From NCBI GenBank assembly GCA_003153955.1, contig PMCB01000045.1, forward strand, positions 21,339 to 42,510: 21,172 bases of DNA, in the 5' to 3' direction. The DNA is from Dehalococcoidia bacterium. GTDB taxonomy: Bacteria; Chloroflexota; Dehalococcoidia; Dehalococcoidales; Fen-1064. Made by a program: the position numbers and the translations under genes. The stretch's first letter is position 1. Each line of letters starts with the position of its first letter. Positions 1,452-19,741 of this stretch are shown one piece after another. Under the pieces are notes generated by a model. The model saw only the letters and a list, made by a program, of their open reading frames with translations. It ran no database searches and was not told the origin of the DNA.

Positions 1452-3137
1452 CTATTTATCCCGGTACGGCATCACTGTAATCCGTCCGTCGAGCATTACC
1501 AGCATGAGTTTATCTGCGGCTGCCGATTGTATTTCATTGACCAGTCTCTCGATTTCTTCTTCGGCTAAAGGCGGCATACCCGCGCCTGTTTGCCCGACCA
1601 GATATAAGATATGTGTTTTATAACCCAGCCGGTTTTCCAGCCTTACCGCCAGATCTCCCCCTCGGTCATCCGCCAGTATCGTGATATCACGCTTTGTTAA
1701 CATCGTTTCCGCCCCGCGGCGCTGGTCGGCACGCAAAATCTGCCAGTGGTACCAGAGCAGTCCTGCTGCTACCGCCAAAGTTTGCAGCCCCCATTTTGCG
1801 TCATTGAGGAAGTTAGCGCTGAAGCGGTTTCCTAAGGTGTCCCTGAGCAGTTCATAAATAATCGTCACCATGTCGGCAGCCAGCAGCACAATCGCGGCGC
1901 CGATAATCACGTACAGGAAAATGCGGCGCGACAACGCCCGCCACTCATCGATCCCCCCGGCCCTTACCCGTTTTAAAATGCCGTTCCAATAATACAGCCA
2001 GAGCGGCGTGCCCACGACTAACATTGCCAGTGCGGTTGCCAGTTGATGCCGCCACCAGCCGGCGGTCACGGTCATTTGGGTGCCGGTTTCCACCAGCAAG
2101 CCAAAAAGAATGCTCAAGCCGATCACCGTTGTAGCCAATCCTAAAAAGGCCATCAGGTAAAAATACACCCGCCGTGCCGACTGACGTTTTTCCTGTACGC
2201 GGCCGGCTTCTTCCTGCGCCAACCGCTGATGGTAACCCCATATCGCTAAGCCTACCAGAATCGTCGGGACGGCCCAGCCGAGGAATTGAAAATACCGGCT
2301 CCCCGCAGCGCCGGTACCGCTGAAAATCCAAACAAAGACTTGAAACAGTAAAATGGATGCCGAAACAAGGGCGGCGACGGCGCCCCCGGAAATGGCCGGT
2401 AAATAAAAATAAACCTGCCGGAGTTTTGAGTTAAAATCTCCCCGCGCCATGCGGAACCAGTGAAAATACCAGGTTGCGAGGCCGAATACTATCCAGGCGG
2501 CGTTCCCTTGAGTCGAGGTATTCCAGAATTTCCCGGCGACAAGTACATCACCCCAAACCGGCAAATTTCTAAACGCCGCATTGATCAGTAAAACCAGACT
2601 TACTGCCAGCATTACCAAACCGAAAACACTCATAATGTAGACATACCAGCGCCGCATTGTCTTTGCCGCCGAAGAAGGGTGCCCTTCGGATTCCGATACC
2701 CGGTAATGGTAAAACCAGATAACTCCGGCGACAATCACCAGGGCTAATCCGCCGGGGGAAAACGCATCTGCGGAGGCTCCTGATATCAGCCATTTAAGAA
2801 AGCCGGCGGCATTGACTACAAGAATGAAGGCCGATACTAATAATACAAAATTCAGGAAAAATTTCCGCATCACGGCGCCGGTTTCTTCCTGATTGCCTTT
2901 GACCCGGCGCTGTATTGCCCGCCAGAAGAGCAGCCACAGAGGGCCGCCAATTGCTGTCAACGCCAACCCGAGACTCAGTTGTGTCTGATTAAAATTTGTT
3001 CCGCCCACCTGTGTCAGCTTCGCGCTTTTTATCGTAATTTGAAAAATGAGGCTTAATAACCGTTCTACCCCGGCCGCGAATATTCCCAGGGCCACCAGAG
3101 TGACGGCGTAAAACCAGAACCTTCTGATTGTATTCAT
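1452..3137 (-). CDS. Six-repeat membrane protein (DUF5671-like) with a soluble C-terminal domain
   Basis: A 561-residue integral membrane protein built of six similar units, each of about 65 residues and two predicted helices. Each unit opens with an Arg-Arg/aromatic signature (RRFWFY at 5, RKFFLNF at 91, RRWYVY at 162, RQVYFY at 240, RRVYFY at 322, RRIFLY at 404). Each closes with an aromatic signature (LLFWRAI, IWFYHYRV, TWYFHWF, IWGYHQR, LWLYYWN, LLWYHWQI). This matches the DUF5671 pattern as I know it and predicts about 12 transmembrane helices. Residues 480-561 form a soluble alpha/beta tail. No catalytic motif is evident, and the function of DUF5671 is unknown. The start follows a GAGG site, 15 bp after the stop of the upstream NTF2-like gene, so the two form an operon. 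Confidence 0.82.
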   Translation of the reverse strand: MNTIRRFWFYAVTLVALGIFAAGVERLLSLIFQITIKSAKLTQVGGTNFNQTQLSLGLALTAIGGPLWLLFWRAIQRRVKGNQEETGAVMRKFFLNFVLLVSAFILVVNAAGFLKWLISGASADAFSPGGLALVIVAGVIWFYHYRVSESEGHPSSAAKTMRRWYVYIMSVFGLVMLAVSLVLLINAAFRNLPVWGDVLVAGKFWNTSTQGNAAWIVFGLATWYFHWFRMARGDFNSKLRQVYFYLPAISGGAVAALVSASILLFQVFVWIFSGTGAAGSRYFQFLGWAVPTILVGLAIWGYHQRLAQEEAGRVQEKRQSARRVYFYLMAFLGLATTVIGLSILFGLLVETGTQMTVTAGWWRHQLATALAMLVVGTPLWLYYWNGILKRVRAGGIDEWRALSRRIFLYVIIGAAIVLLAADMVTIIYELLRDTLGNRFSANFLNDAKWGLQTLAVAAGLLWYHWQILRADQRRGAETMLTKRDITILADDRGGDLAVRLENRLGYKTHILYLVGQTGAGMPPLAEEEIERLVNEIQSAAADKLMLVMLDGRITVMPYRDK

Positions 3138-3614: not shown

Positions 3615-3790
3615 TTCGCGCACCTCCCTGATATGTCACCAATGCTAATTCACAATATCACCTGATGTCAATGTTCGCAATCGGGGGTCGGCATCAAAAC
3701 AAAGTTAATGTTAACGCATTTTGTTAATATTACAATATTTGAATGAGCACTGCCGGCTTCTGCCTCCGGAAAGTATCTGGGCGCGGTGAC

Positions 3791-3819
3791 TTGTTTTGGC
3801 GAACCTTTTATCGTAGAAT
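3791..3819 (+). promoter_or_regulatory. Promoter of tRNA-Arg
   Basis: TTGTTT (3791-3796), a 17-nt spacer and TAGAAT (3814-3819) give a good sigma70-type promoter. The expected start near 3826 lies about 10 nt before the mature tRNA 5' end. Confidence 0.65.
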
Positions 3820-3836
3820 TTATGAGTGACGCAAAT

Positions 3837-3913
3837 GTCCCAGTAGCTCAGCTGGATAGAGCGGCTGCCTTCTAAGCAGCGGGTCGTGGGTTCGAATCCC
3901 ACCTGGGATACCA
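3837..3913 (+). tRNA. tRNA-Arg (anticodon TCT), CCA encoded
   Basis: A complete cloverleaf can be drawn. The acceptor stem GTCCCAG (3837-3843) pairs with CTGGGAT (3903-3909), with a G-U first pair. The D stem is GCTC/GAGC. The anticodon stem GCTGC/GCAGC has loop CTTCTAA and anticodon TCT at 3871-3873, reading AGA. The T stem GTGGG/CCCAC has loop TTCGAAT. The discriminator is A3910 and CCA (3911-3913) is genomically encoded. Confidence 0.97.
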
Positions 3914-3926
3914 TAGATTTGAGACT

Positions 3927-4809: not shown

Positions 4810-4971
4810 CACCTTGTCACTCTTGAGGCTTTTAAAGCCGAAATACTCCGAAAGCCGCAGCTGTAGGTACTTTTGACTTTTAGTGAAAATGTATTGACCT
4901 CAGTCGTAATGCACCGGCCTCATCGGGACTCCAGTCTCCACAATCAATATCATCTCAATTCAGTAAAAGAC

Positions 4972-5006
4972 AAAAAAGGGAGTCCTTCAACTGAAGGACT
5001 CCCTTT
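4972..5006 (-). terminator. Terminator of the membrane protein / radical SAM / FVTNSSSTSF operon
   Basis: AAAGGGAGTCCTTC (4975-4988) and GAAGGACTCCCTTT (4993-5006) pair over 14 bp with a 4-nt loop. On the minus strand the hairpin runs into six Ts. It lies 31 nt after the stop of the gene at 5038, marking the 3' end of the operon. Confidence 0.9.
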
Positions 5007-5037
5007 AAAATTATTCAGATTGCCGCCGCACCGATGT

Positions 5038-7113
5038 TTAGAACGTGATATTCACATAGGTAGTTTGCAAAGTTTCGATCAGTTTCGTGCGGTAGGCGAT
5101 GTAAATATCGGTGATACCCTTGGATTTCATCCAGGCATCGAGTGCCTCGCTCTTTGTACCGGTCGCATAGCCGGAGTGCAGTCCTTTATGCAGTAATGCC
5201 TCAAACCCTTTTTCAAATAACTCGCCGCTAAGGTCTTTACCGGCAGAATACATCGCCGCGGTAAGCCCTTTACGGTGTTGTCCGCCGTCGTCCATATCCT
5301 TATACCAGTGATACATGGTGCGCCAGACCGTATATTGGGCGACCCATTTCAGGCAGACTGTCGGTTTGCCCCACATTTCTTCCATGACATTTTTGCCGCC
5401 CTCTTTCACTGTTTCCCCGATAATGATTCCGATATTGGTCTTAACCAGCTCTTCGGCAATGCCGGACCAGTCTTCATTCCATTTTTCACCGATGGTTTTA
5501 ACCGATTCGGTTACGCATTTATAAACTTCTTTACTGACTAACGCGCCGACCGGCCCGAATGCGACGTCTGAAGCTGCCGACCACGCTTTTTCCGCCAGCA
5601 TTTCGACTAACTCGGCCCCGGCTAAAGCCGTCTCCCACCGTTCGGCACTTTCAATTGCTTCCTTGTATTCCTCCATGATTGCTTCATAGGCGATATCCCA
5701 TGTCTTCCGCCGGAATTCCTTTAGGTCTTCGACACCTAACGCATTTTTTTGGTTTTCCAGGTGTTCCAGCCTTGCCTTTTTCATGGCCTCCGGCATATAT
5801 TTGTTGATGATGTAAATACAGTCTGCGTATGCCTTATCCCAGTCGGGATTACCGGGCAGGACTTGAGGCTGGATGGCCAGGGGAATATCGAGGTCGTAGT
5901 GGTCTTTACCGATATCGATGGAAACCGGCAGCGAGGCCTCAAATAAATCGCCTTCTTTGCCGGGGATGGTTTTATTCACCGATACCCGGTACATCGCGGT
6001 GGCTAAGTTCAAATGCCGGATGCCTTCCTCATAAGTAGTATCCTTCTCGAATTTGAAATTACCGTATTTAAATACATGTTCTGCCTTATCGTCCCCGTCA
6101 AAATCCAGCGCGCCGACAACCAGTTTGGTCTGCAGGGTCTTGGGGTCAGATTTGACCTTTTTATCAGTGTCATCCCAGATCAACAGGCACAAATCAACGA
6201 TCTTGAAGGGATTTACCTTTGCATCGTCCTTCATGGTTGCGTCGATAACGATATTTTTATCCTCCCGGGGATTGGTGGAATCGTCGATAAACAGCCCCTC
6301 GCGGTAAACCGTAACCTCGACGGTGTCCTTCAAAGGCGGATCGATACAGGAAACCGTGACATCAATCAGGCCTTTGGCATAATAATCCGTAAAAGTGGCC
6401 GGCCCGCTGTAGCCGCTATCAGCTTCGGTTATGGTAATTTTGCCGGTGGTCGGGTCGTCGGCATCAGCATCCACTTTAACGGTGCAGATCTTGGCGGCAT
6501 TAGGGTCGGCGTCGGCAGTCGGGGGCGCCCATTTGGTATCAGCCGGGCCTTTCATCTTATATTTAACTTCAACGCTCTTCCCGGTCTTGGATAACAGCGT
6601 GACCGCAATCGGCTCAAACGTTATCGAAGGCGGACCGTCAAATTTCAGTGTGACATTTTTGGAAGCCGGTTTGCCGTTATAGGTGCCGCTTACTTTGACG
6701 ACAATCTGGTCCGGAACAACCACGGCCGGGTCTGCAACAGGTGTGGCAGTTACAAATGTTCCTCTCCAGTCACCGGAGGGCCCATCATCGCCTGTTTTCG
6801 CCCAGTTTCCACCTTCCACCACACTAAATGTGAGAGTACTGGTGGCTGATGCATTTGGTTTTTGTTGGCCGGCGTCGTCAATATCGACAAACTGCCCGTA
6901 GACATTGACCGGATTGTTATCGCATTTTAGGGTCATCATCCCTTCCGGCATGGTTGTCGTAAGGAGGTTCGAGGAATCATCTTTATTCGGGTCGTCCTTT
7001 TTAGGGGAGCACAATGTCAACAATGTCGCTATCAGCGCCATAGCCGCGCCGATACCGGCGGCTGCAAAGCTGGTGCTGCTGGAATTGGTGACAAAACCTG
7101 TTCTGTATTTCAT
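5038..7113 (-). CDS. Membrane-anchored protein with N-terminal FVTNSSSTSF motif; candidate radical SAM target
   Basis: A 691-residue protein beginning MKYRTGFVTNSSSTSF. Residues 7-16 match an N-terminal FVTNSSSSSF-like signature that I recall from many uncharacterised bacterial proteins. Residues 17-35 are hydrophobic (anchor or signal), ending at C35 with no good lipobox, then a Lys/Asp-rich linker. Residues about 57-420 look like several Ig-like beta domains and include DFDGDDKAE (337-345), a DxDGDxxxE calcium-loop-like motif. Residues 421-691 are almost entirely helical with many Glu, Lys and Trp, and I recognise no family. I chose the ATG at 7113: GGAGG lies 6 nt upstream and the codon overlaps the radical SAM stop as ATGA. 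The alternative start at 7152 lies inside the enzyme gene. Function unknown. Confidence 0.85.
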   Translation of the reverse strand: MKYRTGFVTNSSSTSFAAAGIGAAMALIATLLTLCSPKKDDPNKDDSSNLLTTTMPEGMMTLKCDNNPVNVYGQFVDIDDAGQQKPNASATSTLTFSVVEGGNWAKTGDDGPSGDWRGTFVTATPVADPAVVVPDQIVVKVSGTYNGKPASKNVTLKFDGPPSITFEPIAVTLLSKTGKSVEVKYKMKGPADTKWAPPTADADPNAAKICTVKVDADADDPTTGKITITEADSGYSGPATFTDYYAKGLIDVTVSCIDPPLKDTVEVTVYREGLFIDDSTNPREDKNIVIDATMKDDAKVNPFKIVDLCLLIWDDTDKKVKSDPKTLQTKLVVGALDFDGDDKAEHVFKYGNFKFEKDTTYEEGIRHLNLATAMYRVSVNKTIPGKEGDLFEASLPVSIDIGKDHYDLDIPLAIQPQVLPGNPDWDKAYADCIYIINKYMPEAMKKARLEHLENQKNALGVEDLKEFRRKTWDIAYEAIMEEYKEAIESAERWETALAGAELVEMLAEKAWSAASDVAFGPVGALVSKEVYKCVTESVKTIGEKWNEDWSGIAEELVKTNIGIIIGETVKEGGKNVMEEMWGKPTVCLKWVAQYTVWRTMYHWYKDMDDGGQHRKGLTAAMYSAGKDLSGELFEKGFEALLHKGLHSGYATGTKSEALDAWMKSKGITDIYIAYRTKLIETLQTTYVNITF

Positions 7114-8132
7114 GACATCCCTCCGCTTAAAATTAGTTGCCGGTTCTGGCAAAGCACAATTTCCGGTGTAATCGGACAGCCGCCAAAACAGATATCTTTA
7201 TGTCCGCAGTCCGGACAGGCATTCCTTAATTTATCCCTGAATTGATCAAATTCCGCGCTCTCCCAGACCTGCGCGATACTTGAATTCCGCAGGCTCACCG
7301 CGCATGTTTCTTTCCGGTCGAAGCTGCACGGCGTCATTTTCATGTCTGAGGAGATATAAGCCGAAAATCTTGCGCCTTCACATGAGTCATAACTTTGCGG
7401 GTCGATCCCTTTGTTATTATTCACCAGAGCCGGTACGCAGCAGCTATCATAACCCACCATTTTTGTGACTTCCGGTTTATCCATCAAGGAAAACAGCATC
7501 TCAATCCGCGGGTCTCCCGGTGGGATGACATTGGCATAATCCCCCTGCCCGACCGGTTTGAATAACAGAAAAATCATCCTGCCGACTCCGTCAGGTAATT
7601 TGCCTTCCTTTAATATTTCGATAGCTTCATCGATGGAATCATCGCCTAAAACATAATGCACGTTGACCGTCACTCCGGCGGCAACCAGCATTTCGATTGC
7701 TTTGTAAGTATAATCATTGCGGTACCAGCTCACTGCCGCCGCCCCACAATATTTGGCGATTATTTTTGCGTTTTCTCCGGTTAATCCGTAGCCTGAAGTA
7801 GTCATATTCGGGACAATGCCTTTACTCCGGGAATAGGCAAGGATTTCCTCGAAATTCTCGTGCATATCAGGATCGCCGCGGCCGCCCAGCGCAAACTGGT
7901 GGACTTTACCCTCGCACTGGTCTGCAATCGTTTTAAAATCAGCAAAACTCATATTCTGCCTGTCCAGACTCCCGCCGCTCTGGTAACATTGAATGCCAGC
8001 CAGCGTGCATTTCCCGGATAAACCATGCGCGCAATGCCCCATAATTCCCACATCCAACAGGTGTGGAAATGAAGCCATAAACGGGTCGATACCCGTATCC
8101 CTGCCATCTTTATCCAGGATGCCGCTGCGCAC
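7110..8132 (-). CDS. Radical SAM/SPASM protein with non-canonical cluster cysteines
   Basis: A 340-residue enzyme from the GTG at 8132. Its C-terminal half has the SPASM layout: C251, C269, then C306-x2-C309-x5-C315-x3-C319, then C328, expected to bind auxiliary 4Fe-4S clusters. The N-terminal half has the barrel signature ALGGRGDPDMHENFEEIL (81-98, GGE-like). In place of CxxxCxxC it carries C34, C42 and C49 (C-x7-C-x6-C). SPASM enzymes usually modify peptides or proteins. The gene overlaps the start of the FVTNSSSTSF gene by 4 bp. The GTG has no Shine-Dalgarno site. The frame is open upstream to 8246 without ATG, GTG or TTG, and reads protein-like (LLDEKYRFRTLFDSSNGNYV), so the N-terminus is uncertain. 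Confidence 0.88.
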   Translation of the reverse strand: MRSGILDKDGRDTGIDPFMASFPHLLDVGIMGHCAHGLSGKCTLAGIQCYQSGGSLDRQNMSFADFKTIADQCEGKVHQFALGGRGDPDMHENFEEILAYSRSKGIVPNMTTSGYGLTGENAKIIAKYCGAAAVSWYRNDYTYKAIEMLVAAGVTVNVHYVLGDDSIDEAIEILKEGKLPDGVGRMIFLLFKPVGQGDYANVIPPGDPRIEMLFSLMDKPEVTKMVGYDSCCVPALVNNNKGIDPQSYDSCEGARFSAYISSDMKMTPCSFDRKETCAVSLRNSSIAQVWESAEFDQFRDKLRNACPDCGHKDICFGGCPITPEIVLCQNRQLILSGGMS

Positions 8133-8181
8133 ATAATTGCCGTTGCTGCTATCGAACAGCGTCCTGAAACGATACTTTTCG

Positions 8182-9090
8182 TCAAGAAGGCTGTGTAGTT
8201 TTGGCGGGTTGGGCGGGTTGGACTTGTTGTTGATTTTTTCTCGCTCCTATGAAATACCAAGTGAGACCGGCAACGATTAAAACACCGCCGACGATATAAC
8301 CTGTCGGGTCTACGAAATTATTGGTAACACGCACGAAAGCAAAAATAATCGAGAGTATCATGCCTAAAGCGAATGAAGCTATAGCAATGAACAGAGTGGC
8401 AACCGTTAACTTACTGTTGTCTTTCTTGAAAAGGTGCATAATATCGCGCCAGCCGGCCCTTACCAGTTTGATAATCGGTTCAGTCAGCCCGCGTGAAAGT
8501 GCAAAAGATAAACCCAGAGCGGTCAGGAAAACCACCAGATATTTGTCGATGTGATTGTTTCTGCTGATTGCGTTCGCCAGCATCATGCCGGCGCCGGCAA
8601 AGCAAAGCATGATAATAAACGCATCCTTGCCTTTTTTGACAAAGGCTTTGATGGCGACCGTATAAGTTCTGGTCAACCGGCTGCCGCGGGCTTTAAGAGC
8701 TGCCCAAAAACCTACCTTTTTTATTTCTCTGATAAAAGGCACAATTTCCCGGCCGATAAATCCGGCGAAAAACGCTTTTCCCACCCATGTGTTCCAGCTG
8801 GCGGTAATAAAGATGGCAAATTTTATTATGGGGTTGTTCATGAGCGAGGAAATCATTGGAATTGACCCCAGCCAGATCCACAGCGCCGCCAGGGGAACCA
8901 GCCACATGTAATGTTGTTTAATCAGGTTTACAGCATTTTTCAGATTGTCCGTAATGATTTTCAACAAAACTTTGAAAAACGGTGTATCATCCTTTTCCTC
9001 TTCTGCAGTCAGAATACCGATCACCCCGCCTAATGCGTTCGGTGGCACTGGGAGTACCCGCATGCTTGAGCTGCCTGATTGCTGTTTCAT
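8182..9090 (-). CDS. Six-helix membrane protein of unknown function
   Basis: A 302-residue protein with a soluble N-terminus containing SGSSSM and a Pro/Gly-rich stretch (13-26). Predicted membrane segments lie near 61-80, 88-112, 157-174, 181-200, 229-253 and 263-281. The tail (286-302) is Gln/Pro/Thr-rich and is encoded by a tandem CAACCCGCC repeat. I recognise no family and no transport motif. The ATG at 9090 follows AAGGA at a 9-nt distance. It is the first gene of the operon with the radical SAM enzyme and the FVTNSSSTSF protein, so it may export, anchor or sense the product, which is inference. Losing one A from the A6 tract at 8234-8239 would join it in frame to the radical SAM gene. 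Confidence 0.8.
   Translation of the reverse strand: MKQQSGSSSMRVLPVPPNALGGVIGILTAEEEKDDTPFFKVLLKIITDNLKNAVNLIKQHYMWLVPLAALWIWLGSIPMISSLMNNPIIKFAIFITASWNTWVGKAFFAGFIGREIVPFIREIKKVGFWAALKARGSRLTRTYTVAIKAFVKKGKDAFIIMLCFAGAGMMLANAISRNNHIDKYLVVFLTALGLSFALSRGLTEPIIKLVRAGWRDIMHLFKKDNSKLTVATLFIAIASFALGMILSIIFAFVRVTNNFVDPTGYIVGGVLIVAGLTWYFIGARKNQQQVQPAQPAKTTQPS
8234..8239 (-). other. A6 homopolymer at the frame junction between membrane protein and radical SAM genes
   Basis: On the minus strand GAG is followed by six As and TC. In the membrane protein frame this reads AGA AAA AAT CAA. With five As it reads AGA AAA ATC AAC, which is the open radical SAM frame, uninterrupted to 7110. This may be an assembly error, transcriptional slippage or a genuine boundary with an unusual start. 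Confidence 0.6.
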
Positions 9091-9174: not shown

Positions 9175-9202
9175 TTTATCCATTTTAGAATATAATTGTC
9201 AA
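9175..9202 (-). promoter_or_regulatory. Promoter of the radical SAM operon
   Basis: On the minus strand a perfect TTGACA (9197-9202), a 16-nt spacer and GATAAA (9175-9180) lie about 85 bp upstream of the ATG at 9090. A second weaker pair (TTGACT, 17 nt, CAAAAT) lies just upstream. Confidence 0.55.
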
Positions 9203-16123: not shown

Positions 16124-17218
16124 ATGGATTACATGGAACGGGCAATCTCACTGGCAAAGCTGGCACTGGGTCAGGTCAGTCCTAATCCGGCTGTCGGCGC
16201 TGTAATCGTCAAGGACGACGATATTATCGGGCAGGGCTATACACAGCCGCCCGGTTCTTCTCATGCCGAAATCATGGCGCTGAAAGAAGCCGGCATGCGG
16301 GCCAGCGGCGGGGTGATGTATGTTACTCTTGAACCCTGCTGCCATTTCGGGCGGACGCCGCCATGCACTAAGGCGATAATCGCGTCCGGCATTAAAGAAG
16401 TTCATGCCGCAATAACCGACCCGAATCCTCTGGTCAGCGGCAAAGGTTTGAAGGAACTGGAAAGCGCGGGTATAAAAACGGTAGTCGGCGAACACGCCGA
16501 AGATGCTTCGGAAATCGTTGAGTCTTACATTAAATTCATCACTACCAGCAGGCCCTTCGTCACCATCAAATACGCCATGAGCATCGACGGTAAAATCGCG
16601 GCGCGCACCGGCGATTCCAAATGGATCAGCAGTGATGAGTCCCGGCGTTACGTTCTCTTCCTGCGCTACACCACCGACGCGGTGATGGTTGGCGTGAATA
16701 CCGTTTTAACCGATGATCCTCAGTTGACCTCCCGCGCCAGCATCCGCGGCGGCGTTGCTAAAAATCAACCGCTCCGGGTTATTGTCGATGCAACCGGGCG
16801 CACGCCGGTGACCGCGAAAATATTTAACACTCCCGGACAAGTTTTAATGGCCGTGAGCGATAAGATCGCCGCCGCCCAAAAGAAAGCTTATAAGAAGCTG
16901 GGCGCGGAGGTTCTGGTACTGCCGGCCAAAAAGGGACTCATCGACCTCGGTAAACTATTGAGCGCTCTCGGCGAAAAACAGATTACTAGCGTGCTGGTCG
17001 AGGGCGGCGCCAGTCTACTGGGTTCTTTATGTGATAATAATCTGGTAGATAAAGCGGTCGTTTTCGTAGCCCCGGTTATCATCGGCGGAGATAAAGCCCG
17101 CACGGCAATCGGTGGTAAAGGCGCCGATAAAGTAGTAAACTCATTAAAGCTGGAACGTGTCAAAACCAAACGTTCCGACAGTGACATGATGATCACCGGT
17201 TATATCGGGAGAAAATAA
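16124..17218 (+). CDS. ribD: Bifunctional riboflavin biosynthesis deaminase/reductase RibD
   Basis: A 364-residue bifunctional enzyme. It deaminates 2,5-diamino-6-ribosylamino-pyrimidinone 5'-phosphate and then reduces the ribosyl side chain with NADPH. The deaminase domain (1-145) has HAE at 47-49 and PCCHFGRTPPC (71-81), giving zinc ligands H47, C72 and C81 and proton-shuttle E49. The reductase domain (about 147-362) has RPFVTIKYAMSIDGKIA, GVNTVLTDDPQLT and LVEGGASLLGS, as in DHFR-like RibD domains. The length is normal. The ATG at 16124 has no Shine-Dalgarno site and follows a promoter so closely that the mRNA may be leaderless. An in-frame ATG at 16133 is an alternative. It is the first gene of the rib cluster and abuts ribE. 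Confidence 0.96.
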   Translation: MDYMERAISLAKLALGQVSPNPAVGAVIVKDDDIIGQGYTQPPGSSHAEIMALKEAGMRASGGVMYVTLEPCCHFGRTPPCTKAIIASGIKEVHAAITDPNPLVSGKGLKELESAGIKTVVGEHAEDASEIVESYIKFITTSRPFVTIKYAMSIDGKIAARTGDSKWISSDESRRYVLFLRYTTDAVMVGVNTVLTDDPQLTSRASIRGGVAKNQPLRVIVDATGRTPVTAKIFNTPGQVLMAVSDKIAAAQKKAYKKLGAEVLVLPAKKGLIDLGKLLSALGEKQITSVLVEGGASLLGSLCDNNLVDKAVVFVAPVIIGGDKARTAIGGKGADKVVNSLKLERVKTKRSDSDMMITGYIGRK

Positions 17219-17848
17219 TTGTTCACCGGCATTGTTGAAGAAATCGGCAAAGTCAGTTTTATACGCCCGGACCGGTTGGCAGTTAAAGCGTCCAAGGCCC
17301 TTGCTGATGTGGAATTGGGCGTGAGCATCGCCGTCAACGGTACCTGCCTGACCGTCACAGATTTTACCGCCGATTCCTTCTCGGTCGGCCTCCAACCGGA
17401 AACTTTACGCCGCACCAACCTCGGCTTTTTAAAAGTCGGCGATGAAGTCAATCTGGAACGGGCGCTAAAGCTGGGGGGCAGGCTGGGCGGGCATCTGGTG
17501 CAGGGGCATATCGACGATACCGGTAAAATCGTTTCTATCCGGCAGGAACAAAAATCCAAACTGATGACGGTGTCCGTACCTCACCCCTTGATGCGGTACA
17601 TGGGGGTCAAAGGGTTTATCGCGGTGGACGGCCTCAGTCTGACCATTGCCGAGATGGGGGCAGATTCCTTCACCGTTTCTCTGGTGGAGTTCACCCAGAA
17701 TGTCACCACCATCGCAAAGAAAAAAGTAGGCGATGTGGTCAATCTGGAAGTCGATATCATCGCGAAATACGTGGAATCTCTGGCCGGCCGTTCCGGCGAG
17801 AGCATAACGTTTGATTTTTTACAGGAGCACGGTTTCGTTCGTAATTAA
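17219..17848 (+). CDS. ribE: Riboflavin synthase alpha chain
   Basis: A 209-residue enzyme that dismutates two 6,7-dimethyl-8-ribityllumazine molecules into riboflavin and the ribitylamino-pyrimidinedione. It begins with the hallmark MFTGIVEEIGKV and has two lumazine-binding beta-barrel repeats: 1-97 (GVSIAVNGTCLTV, VNLERAL) and 98-196 (GFIAVDGLSLTI, VNLEVDIIAKYV). GGHLVQGHIDD at 90-100 marks the junction, and the C-terminal helix follows. The start is TTG directly after the ribD stop (no gap), with GGGAG about 7 nt upstream, so it is translationally coupled to ribD. It could be named ribC in Bacillus-style nomenclature. Confidence 0.96.
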   Translation: MFTGIVEEIGKVSFIRPDRLAVKASKALADVELGVSIAVNGTCLTVTDFTADSFSVGLQPETLRRTNLGFLKVGDEVNLERALKLGGRLGGHLVQGHIDDTGKIVSIRQEQKSKLMTVSVPHPLMRYMGVKGFIAVDGLSLTIAEMGADSFTVSLVEFTQNVTTIAKKKVGDVVNLEVDIIAKYVESLAGRSGESITFDFLQEHGFVRN

Positions 17849-17881
17849 CCGGCGGCTCTGTTTTTAGGTCTGGAGTAAAAG

Positions 17882-19120
17882 ATGACATTATCAAGTATCC
17901 CCGAAATTATCAAAGACGTACAAGCCGGCAAGTTTATCATCCTGGTGGATGATGAAGGCCGCGAGAATGAAGGCGACCTGATTATGGCTGCCGAGAAAAT
18001 ATCCGCGGAAGCGATTAACTTTATGGCTAAAAATGCCCGCGGGCTGATTTGTATGCCGATCACCGAACAGCGTCTGAACGAACTGAATATCCCGATGATG
18101 GTGGGGGAAAATACCGCCATGCACGGCACTGCTTTTACGGTCTCGGTGGATGCCAAAATCCGCGGGGTGACCACCGGTATTTCGGCCCACGACCGCGCGG
18201 AAACAATTAAAGCGATCATCGACCCGGCTACCAAACCCGGAGACCTGGGTAGGCCCGGACACATCTTTCCGATACGCGCCCGCGAGGGCGGCGTGCTGGT
18301 CAGGGCCGGCCACACCGAAGCTACGGTCGACATGGCGCGCCTGGCCGGGCTGTATCCCGCCGGAGTCCTCTGCGAAATCATGAACGAAGACGGCTCCATG
18401 GCCCGCCTGCCGCAGCTGGAAATCATGGCGCAAAAGCTTAACCTGAAAATCGCCAGCATCGCCGACCTGATCGAATACCGCCGCCACCATGATAAAATGG
18501 TGCGCAAGGTCGCAGAAGCGGTCCTTCCGACAAAATACGGCGAGTTCAAATTGATTGCTTACAAAAGTGAAATAGATACCGATGAACATGTCGCGCTGGT
18601 CATGGGTGATATTTCCGGAGACGAGCCGGTGCTGGTGCGCGTGCACAGCGAATGCCTCACCGGCGATGCCTTCGGCAGCCTGCGTTGCGATTGCGGCGAA
18701 CAGTTAGATATGGCGATGAAAGCCATAGCCAAAGAAGGCCGGGGCGTTTTGCTCTACCTGCGGCAAGAGGGCCGCGGCATCGGCTTGCATAATAAAATCC
18801 GCGCCTACGAACTGCAGGATAAAGGATTAGATACAGTCGAGGCGAACGTCAAACTCGGGTTTGCGCCCGACATGCGCGATTATGGCATCGGTGCACAAAT
18901 TTTAACCGACCTCGGCTTACACAACATCCGCATGTTGACAAATAATCCCAAAAAACTGATCGGACTGGAAGGCTACGGCTTGAAAGTGGCCGAGACCCTG
19001 CCGATTATCTGCGAACCGAATCAGTATAACATCCATTATCTGGAAACCAAAGAAACCAAAATGGGTCATACTCTCGGCATTACGCATAATCACCCCGAGA
19101 CTAAGAAAGATAAGAAATAA
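17882..19120 (+). CDS. ribBA: Bifunctional DHBP synthase / GTP cyclohydrolase II RibBA
   Basis: A 412-residue fusion. The N-terminal domain (1-205) makes 3,4-dihydroxy-2-butanone 4-phosphate from ribulose-5-phosphate. It carries the acidic metal-binding DDEGRENEGDL (23-33) and HTEA (144-147). The C-terminal domain (206-400) opens GTP. It carries zinc ligands C258, C269 and C271 in SECLTGDAFGSLRCDCG, the LRQEGRGIGL loop (293-302) and MRDYGIGAQIL (331-341) with the catalytic Tyr. Together they supply both precursors for the pathway. GGAG lies 6 nt before the ATG, 33 nt after the ribE stop, so it is in the same operon. All expected active-site motifs are present. Confidence 0.97.
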   Translation: MTLSSIPEIIKDVQAGKFIILVDDEGRENEGDLIMAAEKISAEAINFMAKNARGLICMPITEQRLNELNIPMMVGENTAMHGTAFTVSVDAKIRGVTTGISAHDRAETIKAIIDPATKPGDLGRPGHIFPIRAREGGVLVRAGHTEATVDMARLAGLYPAGVLCEIMNEDGSMARLPQLEIMAQKLNLKIASIADLIEYRRHHDKMVRKVAEAVLPTKYGEFKLIAYKSEIDTDEHVALVMGDISGDEPVLVRVHSECLTGDAFGSLRCDCGEQLDMAMKAIAKEGRGVLLYLRQEGRGIGLHNKIRAYELQDKGLDTVEANVKLGFAPDMRDYGIGAQILTDLGLHNIRMLTNNPKKLIGLEGYGLKVAETLPIICEPNQYNIHYLETKETKMGHTLGITHNHPETKKDKK

Positions 19121-19185
19121 GGCCAACCCATACTGAAGCTATAAAATAGCTGAAGAATCTCCGTATCTGTTTACTAGGCTCGGCG

Positions 19186-19219
19186 ATCCTTCGCTCCGCT
19201 CAGGATGGCGCGCAGCGCC
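19186..19219. repeat. REP-like double hairpin between ribBA and ribH
   Basis: ATCCT (19186-19190) pairs with AGGAT (19202-19206) around TCGCTCCGCTC. It is followed immediately by GGCGC-GCA-GCGCC (19207-19219). The wording resembles dispersed intergenic 'CTTCGCT...CTCAGGATG' repeats seen in many genomes. It could attenuate read-through from ribBA. Confidence 0.5.
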
Positions 19220-19221
19220 AC

Positions 19222-19250
19222 TTGACATATCGTTATGGAAACTTGATACT
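19222..19250 (+). promoter_or_regulatory. Independent promoter of ribH
   Basis: A perfect TTGACA (19222-19227), a 17-nt spacer and GATACT (19245-19250). The transcript would start near 19257, with AGGAGG and the ATG at 19274 close behind. Confidence 0.7.
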
Positions 19251-19273
19251 TATATTAATCAGGAGGATTACAA

Positions 19274-19741
19274 ATGAGCAAAGTTTATGAAGGGATGTTA
19301 CAGGGCAAAGGACTGAAATTCGCGATTGTTATCGCGCGTTTTAATGAGTTTATCACCGGTAAATTACTGGACGGCGCGCAGGACGCTATGAAACGCCATG
19401 GGGTAAATGATGTTGATGTTGACATCGCCTGGGCACCCGGCTCGTTCGAAATTCCTCTGGTGGCTAAAAAACTGGCTGAAACTAAAAAATATGATGCTAT
19501 CATCTGCCTCGGGGCAGTTATTCGCGGCGCGACACCCCATTTTGAATATGTCGCCAACGAAGTTTCCAAGGGTATCGCCAAAGTCGGACTGGATTCAGGG
19601 ATACCCGTCGCTTACGGCATTATTACCGCCGATAACCTGGAGCAGGCCATCGAACGCGCCGGCACTAAAGCCGGGAACCGCGGATTCGACGCTGCGACGA
19701 ACGCCATCGAAATGGCTAACCTGCTGAAAGGAATTAAATAA
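19274..19741 (+). CDS. ribH: 6,7-dimethyl-8-ribityllumazine synthase
   Basis: A 155-residue enzyme that condenses the ribitylamino-pyrimidinedione with dihydroxybutanone phosphate to form lumazine; the family assembles as pentamers or 60-mer shells. Family motifs are present: ARFNEFIT (21-28), the aromatic-position W53, GSFEIP (56-61), [14 protein letters not shown] (80-93) with catalytic H89, and AGTKAGNRG (129-137) for phosphate binding. AGGAGG lies 7 nt before the ATG. It is separated from ribBA by 153 bp containing a REP-like hairpin and its own promoter, so it can be expressed independently of the rest of the pathway. Confidence 0.97.

Follow-up and report, generated by a model that had tools for sequence, protein, structure and literature searches.

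Why a radical S-adenosylmethionine (SAM) enzyme should be encoded directly ahead of a large protein with a Ser/Thr/Asn-rich start is the question raised by a minus-strand operon in the window, by which we mean the whole analysed stretch of 21,172 nucleotides from contig PMCB01000045.1 of a Dehalococcoidia bacterium. An earlier note, made from the sequence alone, had described a three-gene operon with a membrane protein, a SPASM radical SAM enzyme and an anchored surface protein, and all three minus-strand open reading frames (ORFs) are indeed present in the order membrane protein, enzyme, tagged protein. Our analysis suggests that the enzyme is probably a protein maturase of the SPASM radical SAM type that acts on an N-terminal tag carried by many otherwise unrelated proteins. 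We base this best explanation on the gene pairing, the co-occurrence of enzyme and tag, the constant tag core, a change of residue 4 by enzyme clade and a fold typical of peptide or protein modifiers. The features of the operon are the following:

7110 to about 8192, minus strand: SPASM radical SAM enzyme (SPASM domain, invariant cysteines, AlphaFold model)
7986..8033, minus strand: putative SAM-cluster cysteine codons, C54-X7-C62-X6-C69-Y-Q, unchanged in alignments of 20 and of 94 relatives
5038..7113, minus strand: tagged protein of 691 aa with the start MKYRTGFVTNSSSTSF, consisting of tag, helix, immunoglobulin (Ig)-like beta region and helical C-terminal region (modest-confidence model)
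7066..7113, minus strand: 16-residue N-terminal tag MKYRTGFVTNSSSTSF, modelled as disordered (mean predicted local distance difference test score, pLDDT, of 32 over residues 1-10)
7015..7071, minus strand: predicted helix 15-33 right behind the tag, a likely membrane anchor by sequence and model
8182..9090, minus strand: membrane protein of 302 aa that opens the operon, with five hydrophobic segments by hydropathy scan
7113-7110, minus strand: stop of the enzyme and start of the tagged protein, overlapping as ATGA
5006-4975, minus strand: intrinsic terminator with 14 pairs and a T-rich tail

Whether motif-bearing ORFs lie beside the enzyme in other genomes more often than chance was the check that the earlier note had proposed, and the pairing goes far beyond chance in cells and phages alike. 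Among the best 80 of 221 confirmed enzyme relatives in named assemblies, 77 loci have a start-anchored tag of the consensus MKx(R/K)x(D/G)FV(T/S)NSSSxSF, 16 residues long (66/67 after merging enzymes at 90% identity), which at 60 of the 80 loci starts 4-126 nt past the enzyme match. The 1.26 Mb covered by these loci contain 101 matches to the tag pattern, 100 of them at a start codon and 94 of these 100 on the enzyme strand; the reversed pattern and five mononucleotide shuffles gave 0 matches, and chance or composition was rejected as the origin of the tag. Two of the tagless loci simply end 63 and 53 nt beyond the enzyme match (L023 and L045), and the third (L080) has no tag at the locus yet carries a tag gene on another contig of its genome. 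All of the 25 loci that were traced to their genomes have a tag match there.

The same association holds across whole genomes, for which we used four sets (148 + 200 + 150 + 149 = 647 genomes) with thresholds of E<=1e-30 for the enzyme profile and E<=1e-5 for the tag profile (A4, made from enzyme-adjacent genes), the latter chosen after the results were known. The enzyme was detected in 10/647 genomes and the tag in 8 of these 10 and in 0/637 without enzyme, taking the identity of the genome sets between both searches from equal set sizes and identifiers (Fisher p 6e-17; 2e-9 without the four centre genomes that had been picked for having the enzyme). Judged from their sequence, the enzyme genes of the two tagless genomes look broken, given that the match in G286 stops near model position 196 and appears to run into unrelated sequence and that the enzyme of G585 is without a middle part. 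The window's own assembly (2.09 Mb in 137 contigs, 83% complete) has one enzyme match and one tag match, and these adjoin.

Viral genomes were sampled as the best 80 of 220 confirmed IMG/VR relatives of the enzyme. The 38 loci nearest to the window enzyme (L118-L155) have a tag in 36 cases (23/24 at 90% identity) and the cysteine spacing CX7CX6C in 33; of the two tagless ones, L119 has only 491 nt downstream and L146 only 361 nt upstream, where its relatives L143-L145 carry a tag gene about 420 nt upstream. Among the 42 other viral loci (L156-L197), all with a CX3CX2C stretch even though a motif test trying CX7CX6C first assigned five of them to that spacing, the tag was found in 24 (19/30 at 90% identity). 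These collections are partly redundant, with the 80 cellular loci amounting to 67 enzymes at 90% identity, the 38 close-group viral loci to 24 and the 42 CX3CX2C viral loci to 30. Phages carry up to eight consecutive tagged genes (L126), and the tag-core DNA used alone as a query in viral contigs found 23 stretches, every one of them at an ORF start, in records of which 21/23 encode the enzyme (10 of these contigs were already among the results of the enzyme search). A distant enzyme relative of about 27% identity is present in 169 records of named phages; among the matches listed, those infecting Klebsiella, Enterobacter, Cronobacter, Citrobacter and Escherichia predominate. Searching named phages by tblastn with three full phage tagged proteins gave no matches, and neither did the 20-residue tag against phages and plasmids, a query too short to mean much.

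The tag itself is strikingly constant. The window target and 16 relatives (down to 25% identity), which had been collected by whole-protein similarity without the tag pattern, all keep M1, K2, Y3, R4, T5, F7, V8, T9, N10, S11, S12, S13, S15 and F16. Over 279 distinct tags, S11 and S12 do not vary although the patterns permitted T there, and the patterns fix N10 and limit several other positions, so that the constancy of N10 is given by the pattern. The same tags have K2 in 277 cases, R4 in 234 or K4 in 41, D6 in 256, F7 in 254 or Y7 in 25, V8 in 265, T9 in 272 and S13 in 272, with positions 3, 5, 14 and 15 being freer. Residue 4 is R in 88/90 cellular and 92/92 close-group viral tags and K in 34/35 tags of the viral CX3CX2C group, a switch by clade that would be expected if the enzyme reads this residue. 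Codons vary and both serine codon blocks are used (99 tags), which rules out a conserved DNA element.

The assignment of the enzyme as a radical SAM/SPASM protein was borne out by the Pfam domain PF13186 (SPASM; 30.9 bits against a cut-off of 21.5) and by the generic SPASM domain TIGR04085 (29.8 against 27 bits), with the Pfam Radical_SAM domain staying below its cut-off (21.8 against 29.5 bits). An AlphaFold model (pLDDT 94.8, predicted template modelling score, pTM, 0.92) has a radical SAM barrel and a SPASM region, and its best fold matches are SPASM enzymes, with SuiB, SkfB, anSME, ChlB and PqqE as the closest solved folds and peptide or protein modifiers at the top of the ranking. Neither the enzyme nor its profile found a relevant match among PDB sequences, and membership in a named radical SAM equivalog was discarded with all NCBIfam equivalog scores far under the curated cut-offs. 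The family comprises 2758 database matches, of which 120 are listed, including a relative from a Dehalococcoidales bacterium with 82% identity. Instead of the canonical CX3CX2C, the window enzyme has CX7CX6C, as do 119/120 of the close relatives listed and 80/80 cellular loci, and CX3CX2C is found in 120/120 sister-clade relatives listed. The cysteines of both clades occupy the same place, and binding of a [4Fe-4S] cluster by the CX7CX6C enzyme still appears likely from its sequence because three invariant cysteines remain there. A start of the enzyme at GTG 8132 is too late because conserved residues reach upstream to about 8190 in an open frame, which continues to about 8246 and overlaps the membrane gene, leaving the start codon in that region uncertain. 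Among the viral enzymes, L149 and L152-L155 have a cysteine spacing that is neither CX7CX6C nor CX3CX2C and are possible intermediates. In two viral records, G684 and G691 (loci L214 and L221; open frames of 782 and 789 codons), the enzyme match is broken at about model position 105 by a long in-frame insert with the look of an intein, close to the GGRGD motif.

What follows the tag varies greatly. In an alignment (A3) of the window target with 85 of the 99 cellular tagged ORFs, from which near-copies, two very short and some cut ORFs were left out, invariant columns occur in the tag only. Family matches among these 86 targets include BRCT (11), BspA-type leucine-rich repeats (LRR; 8), HIRAN (1) and a PQQ-like propeller (1), and seven tagged proteins match the candidate defence family PDC-S48. 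Pfam gave no match at E<=0.001 for 46 phage tagged proteins, nine of which match PHROG 7397, a family with no described function. Cellular tagged ORFs range from 38 to 1,073 aa, the shortest perhaps being broken, and 95/99 exceed 100 aa; the 125 distinct phage tagged ORFs (kept at >=60 aa) have 81-256 aa. The window target was modelled with a disordered tag, helix 15-33, strands from about 50 to 415 and a helical end (pLDDT 69.7, pTM 0.46), and a structural search with this model gave weak Ig-like or cadherin-like matches with TM-scores of 0.12-0.22 by query. The label of a surface protein, which the earlier note had attached to this target, does not extend to the tagged proteins as a whole: 63/76 tagged loci have no hydrophobic segment behind the tag, and bodies with BRCT domains (11/86) or BspA-type repeats (8/86) contradict it as well. 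A lipoprotein signal is doubtful in the window target because Cys35 has Leu at -1, and this candidate was dropped; L007, L011 and L020 have a lipobox-like sequence behind the hydrophobic segment.

How far these data carry the maturase reading has to be judged against its rivals. That the motif is a recognition or modification site had been proposed in the earlier note, and of this proposal the pairing of enzyme and motif stands far beyond chance, with recognition or modification as its best explanation. We hold recognition of the tag by the enzyme to be highly probable and a modification within tag residues 1-16 to be likely. In the first of them the tag is a docking handle only, and the enzyme that binds it modifies the tagged protein elsewhere or a different molecule. 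A constant core would suit a binding site just as well, and bodies and neighbours do vary; we nevertheless consider this unlikely, since the bodies share no other possible common target, invariant columns in A3 being confined to the tag, and since the top-ranking solved folds belong to enzymes that modify peptides or proteins. Still less probable is a pathway akin to that of ribosomally synthesised and post-translationally modified peptides (RiPPs), in which the tag region, once modified, would be released as a short product, or would be a leader that is cleaved away. Its appeal lies in the nearest folds, SuiB and SkfB, which are RiPP maturases, and in the lipobox-like sequences at three loci, by which the tag could be cleaved off; yet nearly all cellular tagged ORFs are longer than 100 aa, the conserved part begins at residue 1 with no leader ahead, and no peptidase or peptide exporter is evident by eye in the ORF families present at >=5/80 loci (an ABC-transporter-like ORF family, also judged by eye, occurs at 10 of the 80). 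Finally, the N-terminal position in 100/101 pattern matches and a tag abutting a hydrophobic segment in the window's clade would also suit an expression or localisation signal with which the enzyme merely travels along. This is very improbable in view of the varying codons, of the absence of the tag from all 637 enzyme-free genomes (E<=1e-5) and from the two genomes with broken enzymes, and of a pairing that persists across cells, phages and plasmids and irrespective of the cysteine spacing of the enzyme.

Several observations weigh against the maturase reading all the same. Both the cellular and the viral loci are the best-ranked of the confirmed relatives (80 of 221 and 80 of 220), and 18/42 viral CX3CX2C loci have no tag in the available flank (11/30 at 90% identity). 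Two tag-bearing viral contigs without an enzyme match may be fragments and are probably one phage because they share tag genes, and the T4-like Klebsiella phage Miro (NC_041981, L198; enzyme relative of ~27% identity at 4896-6050) has no tag within 5 kb. Five of the 637 enzyme-free genomes have weak partial matches to the tag profile (E 6.5e-4 to 8.4e-3), spanning model positions 9-28, 2-21, 9-19, 7-22 and 11-29. The residue-4 switch follows the clades and may, as far as the sequences tell, reflect one event. Of the 108 ORFs that form the BRCT/LRR cluster at the cellular loci, 41 had no tag found, so that bodies of this kind seem to occur untagged too. Moreover, that a modification happens, where it falls and which one it is are things we infer.

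If the enzyme is indeed such a maturase, the tagged protein would be made next to it and the flexible tag would enter the enzyme, for which M-K-x-R/K-x-D-F-V-T would be the address. One residue of the N10-S11-S12 core, or several, might then be altered by a 5'-deoxyadenosyl radical. Judging by the modelled fold, anSME-type formylglycine oxidation and a SuiB-type crosslink are both conceivable, and we regard any one specific chemistry as improbable when taken singly. In the window's clade, where the tag precedes a membrane helix, the membrane protein may help to place or hold the modified protein.

Homologues of this membrane protein occur at 10/80 enzyme loci, each upstream of the enzyme, with 21-33% identity (the weakest over 71 residues), and searches with the window protein gave no Pfam or NCBIfam family over its cut-off and no match in PADLOC at E<=0.01. 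Six helices had been claimed for it, but hydropathy, scanned crudely, points to five membrane segments in this protein and to 4-6 in eight relatives. A hydrophobic stretch lies right behind the tag at 10/10 loci with the membrane protein and at 3/66 other tagged loci (p 3e-10), suggesting that it is a partner of membrane-type tagged proteins and not part of the whole system. The proposal that it anchors or exports the product thus survives in part: handling of membrane-bound tagged proteins is plausible, and with 10/80 loci the protein is no general component. In 6/10 of these loci (L007, L012, L040, L041, L047 and L062), a conserved gene of about 313 aa lies behind the tagged gene.

Regarding the layout of the operon, the overlap of enzyme stop and target start was found as described, and the predicted 14-bp terminator was located with its 14 pairs. 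The earlier note took the overlap to favour stoichiometric co-production; ATGA-type overlaps of this kind are ordinary. The tagged protein starts at ATG 7113 with GGAGGG in front, and a 704-aa ORF with a TTG start was ruled out as the target. The promoter claimed at 9175-9202 found no support, the region containing 10 consensus matches where shuffled sequences give 6.4 +/- 2.9; the nearest promoter-like matches lie at 9232-9204 and 9218-9189.

Sister-clade enzymes with CX3CX2C were examined in five further viral contigs and in three of seven plasmids found (Agrobacterium, Rhodobacter and Rhizobium), and in 8/8 a tagged protein of 131-142 aa that begins MKIKxDFVSNSSSTSFVY or a near variant is encoded directly upstream. 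Near the tagged gene lies a gene for a SMEK-NACHT STAND protein, with homologues in all eight loci (L228-L235) and in the Acetatifactor muris locus L108. The STAND protein of L233 scores 143.7 bits for SMEK_N and 29.6 bits for NACHT and matches PADLOC Avs2 models with E down to 8e-27. A STAND NTPase with an added N-terminal domain within the operon, as in Avs/STAND systems, is seen in the sister clade only, no SMEK-NACHT-type gene being seen in the window operon, and this sequence context points to a possible role of the sister clade in conflict with phages. In the 200 genomes of the A. muris family, A. muris itself was the one strong case that the sister-clade profile found. At 7 of the 9 loci, a small unknown protein joins the STAND protein, the tagged protein and the canonical-type enzyme. 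The arrays of tagged genes in phages and the SMEK-NACHT defence-type operon of one enzyme clade lead us to propose tentatively, with somewhat less than even confidence, a general protein-tagging system that bacteria and phages use against each other. In such a system, the radical SAM enzyme would give the N-S-S core of one portable N-terminal tag, shared by many unrelated proteins, a new amino-acid modification.

Elsewhere in the window, a tRNA-Arg (tct) gene lies at 3837-3913 on the plus strand and is overlapped by an opposite-strand ORF (3711-3914) that is probably spurious. Four plus-strand ORFs at 16124-19741 resemble a riboflavin operon (ribD, ribE, ribBA and ribH, by appearance only), and a 561-aa protein with four DUF5671 stretches (179 bits) is encoded at 1452-3137 on the minus strand.

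The fixed 16-residue start to which the enzyme family appears to be tied is found on proteins as long as 1,073 residues, and the pair spans gut and sediment bacteria, plasmids and phages. Should the tag be modified, it would provide radical-made protein modification with a portable and genetically encoded site, would account together for a large number of "hypothetical" genes of phages and bacteria, and could serve as a laboratory label. As far as our literature searches go, which covered few subscription papers and no bioRxiv preprints, the pairing looks like an undescribed system: the tag strings occur in no relevant paper, their one hit being a paper on a hemp-wort peptide, and topic searches gave the same result. 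In the portions available of each paper, a network of peptide-modifying radical SAM enzymes has been mined for precursor peptides (PMC9062424), Bacteroidales RiPPs with a canonical CX3CX2C enzyme have been treated (PMC10352776), and PMC10853773 and PMC3023750 contain no treatment of this enzyme-tag system. Among phage protein families, PHROG 7293 ("unknown function") is matched by the window enzyme, two phage relatives and a canonical sister (E 1e-27 to 4e-24), and its entry gives no function and no mention of tagged partners.

SPASM radical SAM enzymes make unusual bonds in peptides, usually short precursors. Maturases of the mycofactocin, PqqE, tungsten-enzyme and NirJ types give partial NCBIfam matches to the window enzyme, the best of which, TIGR04317 (E 3.7e-13), stays far under its cut-off with 49.3 against 380 bits. 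The formylglycine-forming anSME, which converts Ser or Cys in sulfatases, has 17% identity to the window enzyme, its model TIGR03942 scores 15.4 bits against a cut-off of 349.45, and no sulfatase is among the first 25 of 27 and of 28 families matched by the 86 targets. The RiPP maturases SuiB (the streptide maturase) and SkfB are SPASM enzymes with 18% and 15% identity to the window enzyme and act on a short precursor, which the tagged ORFs do not resemble. In contrast, the enzyme described here has its own SAM-cluster spacing, CX7CX6C, and its partner is a conserved sequence at residue 1 of large, unrelated proteins.

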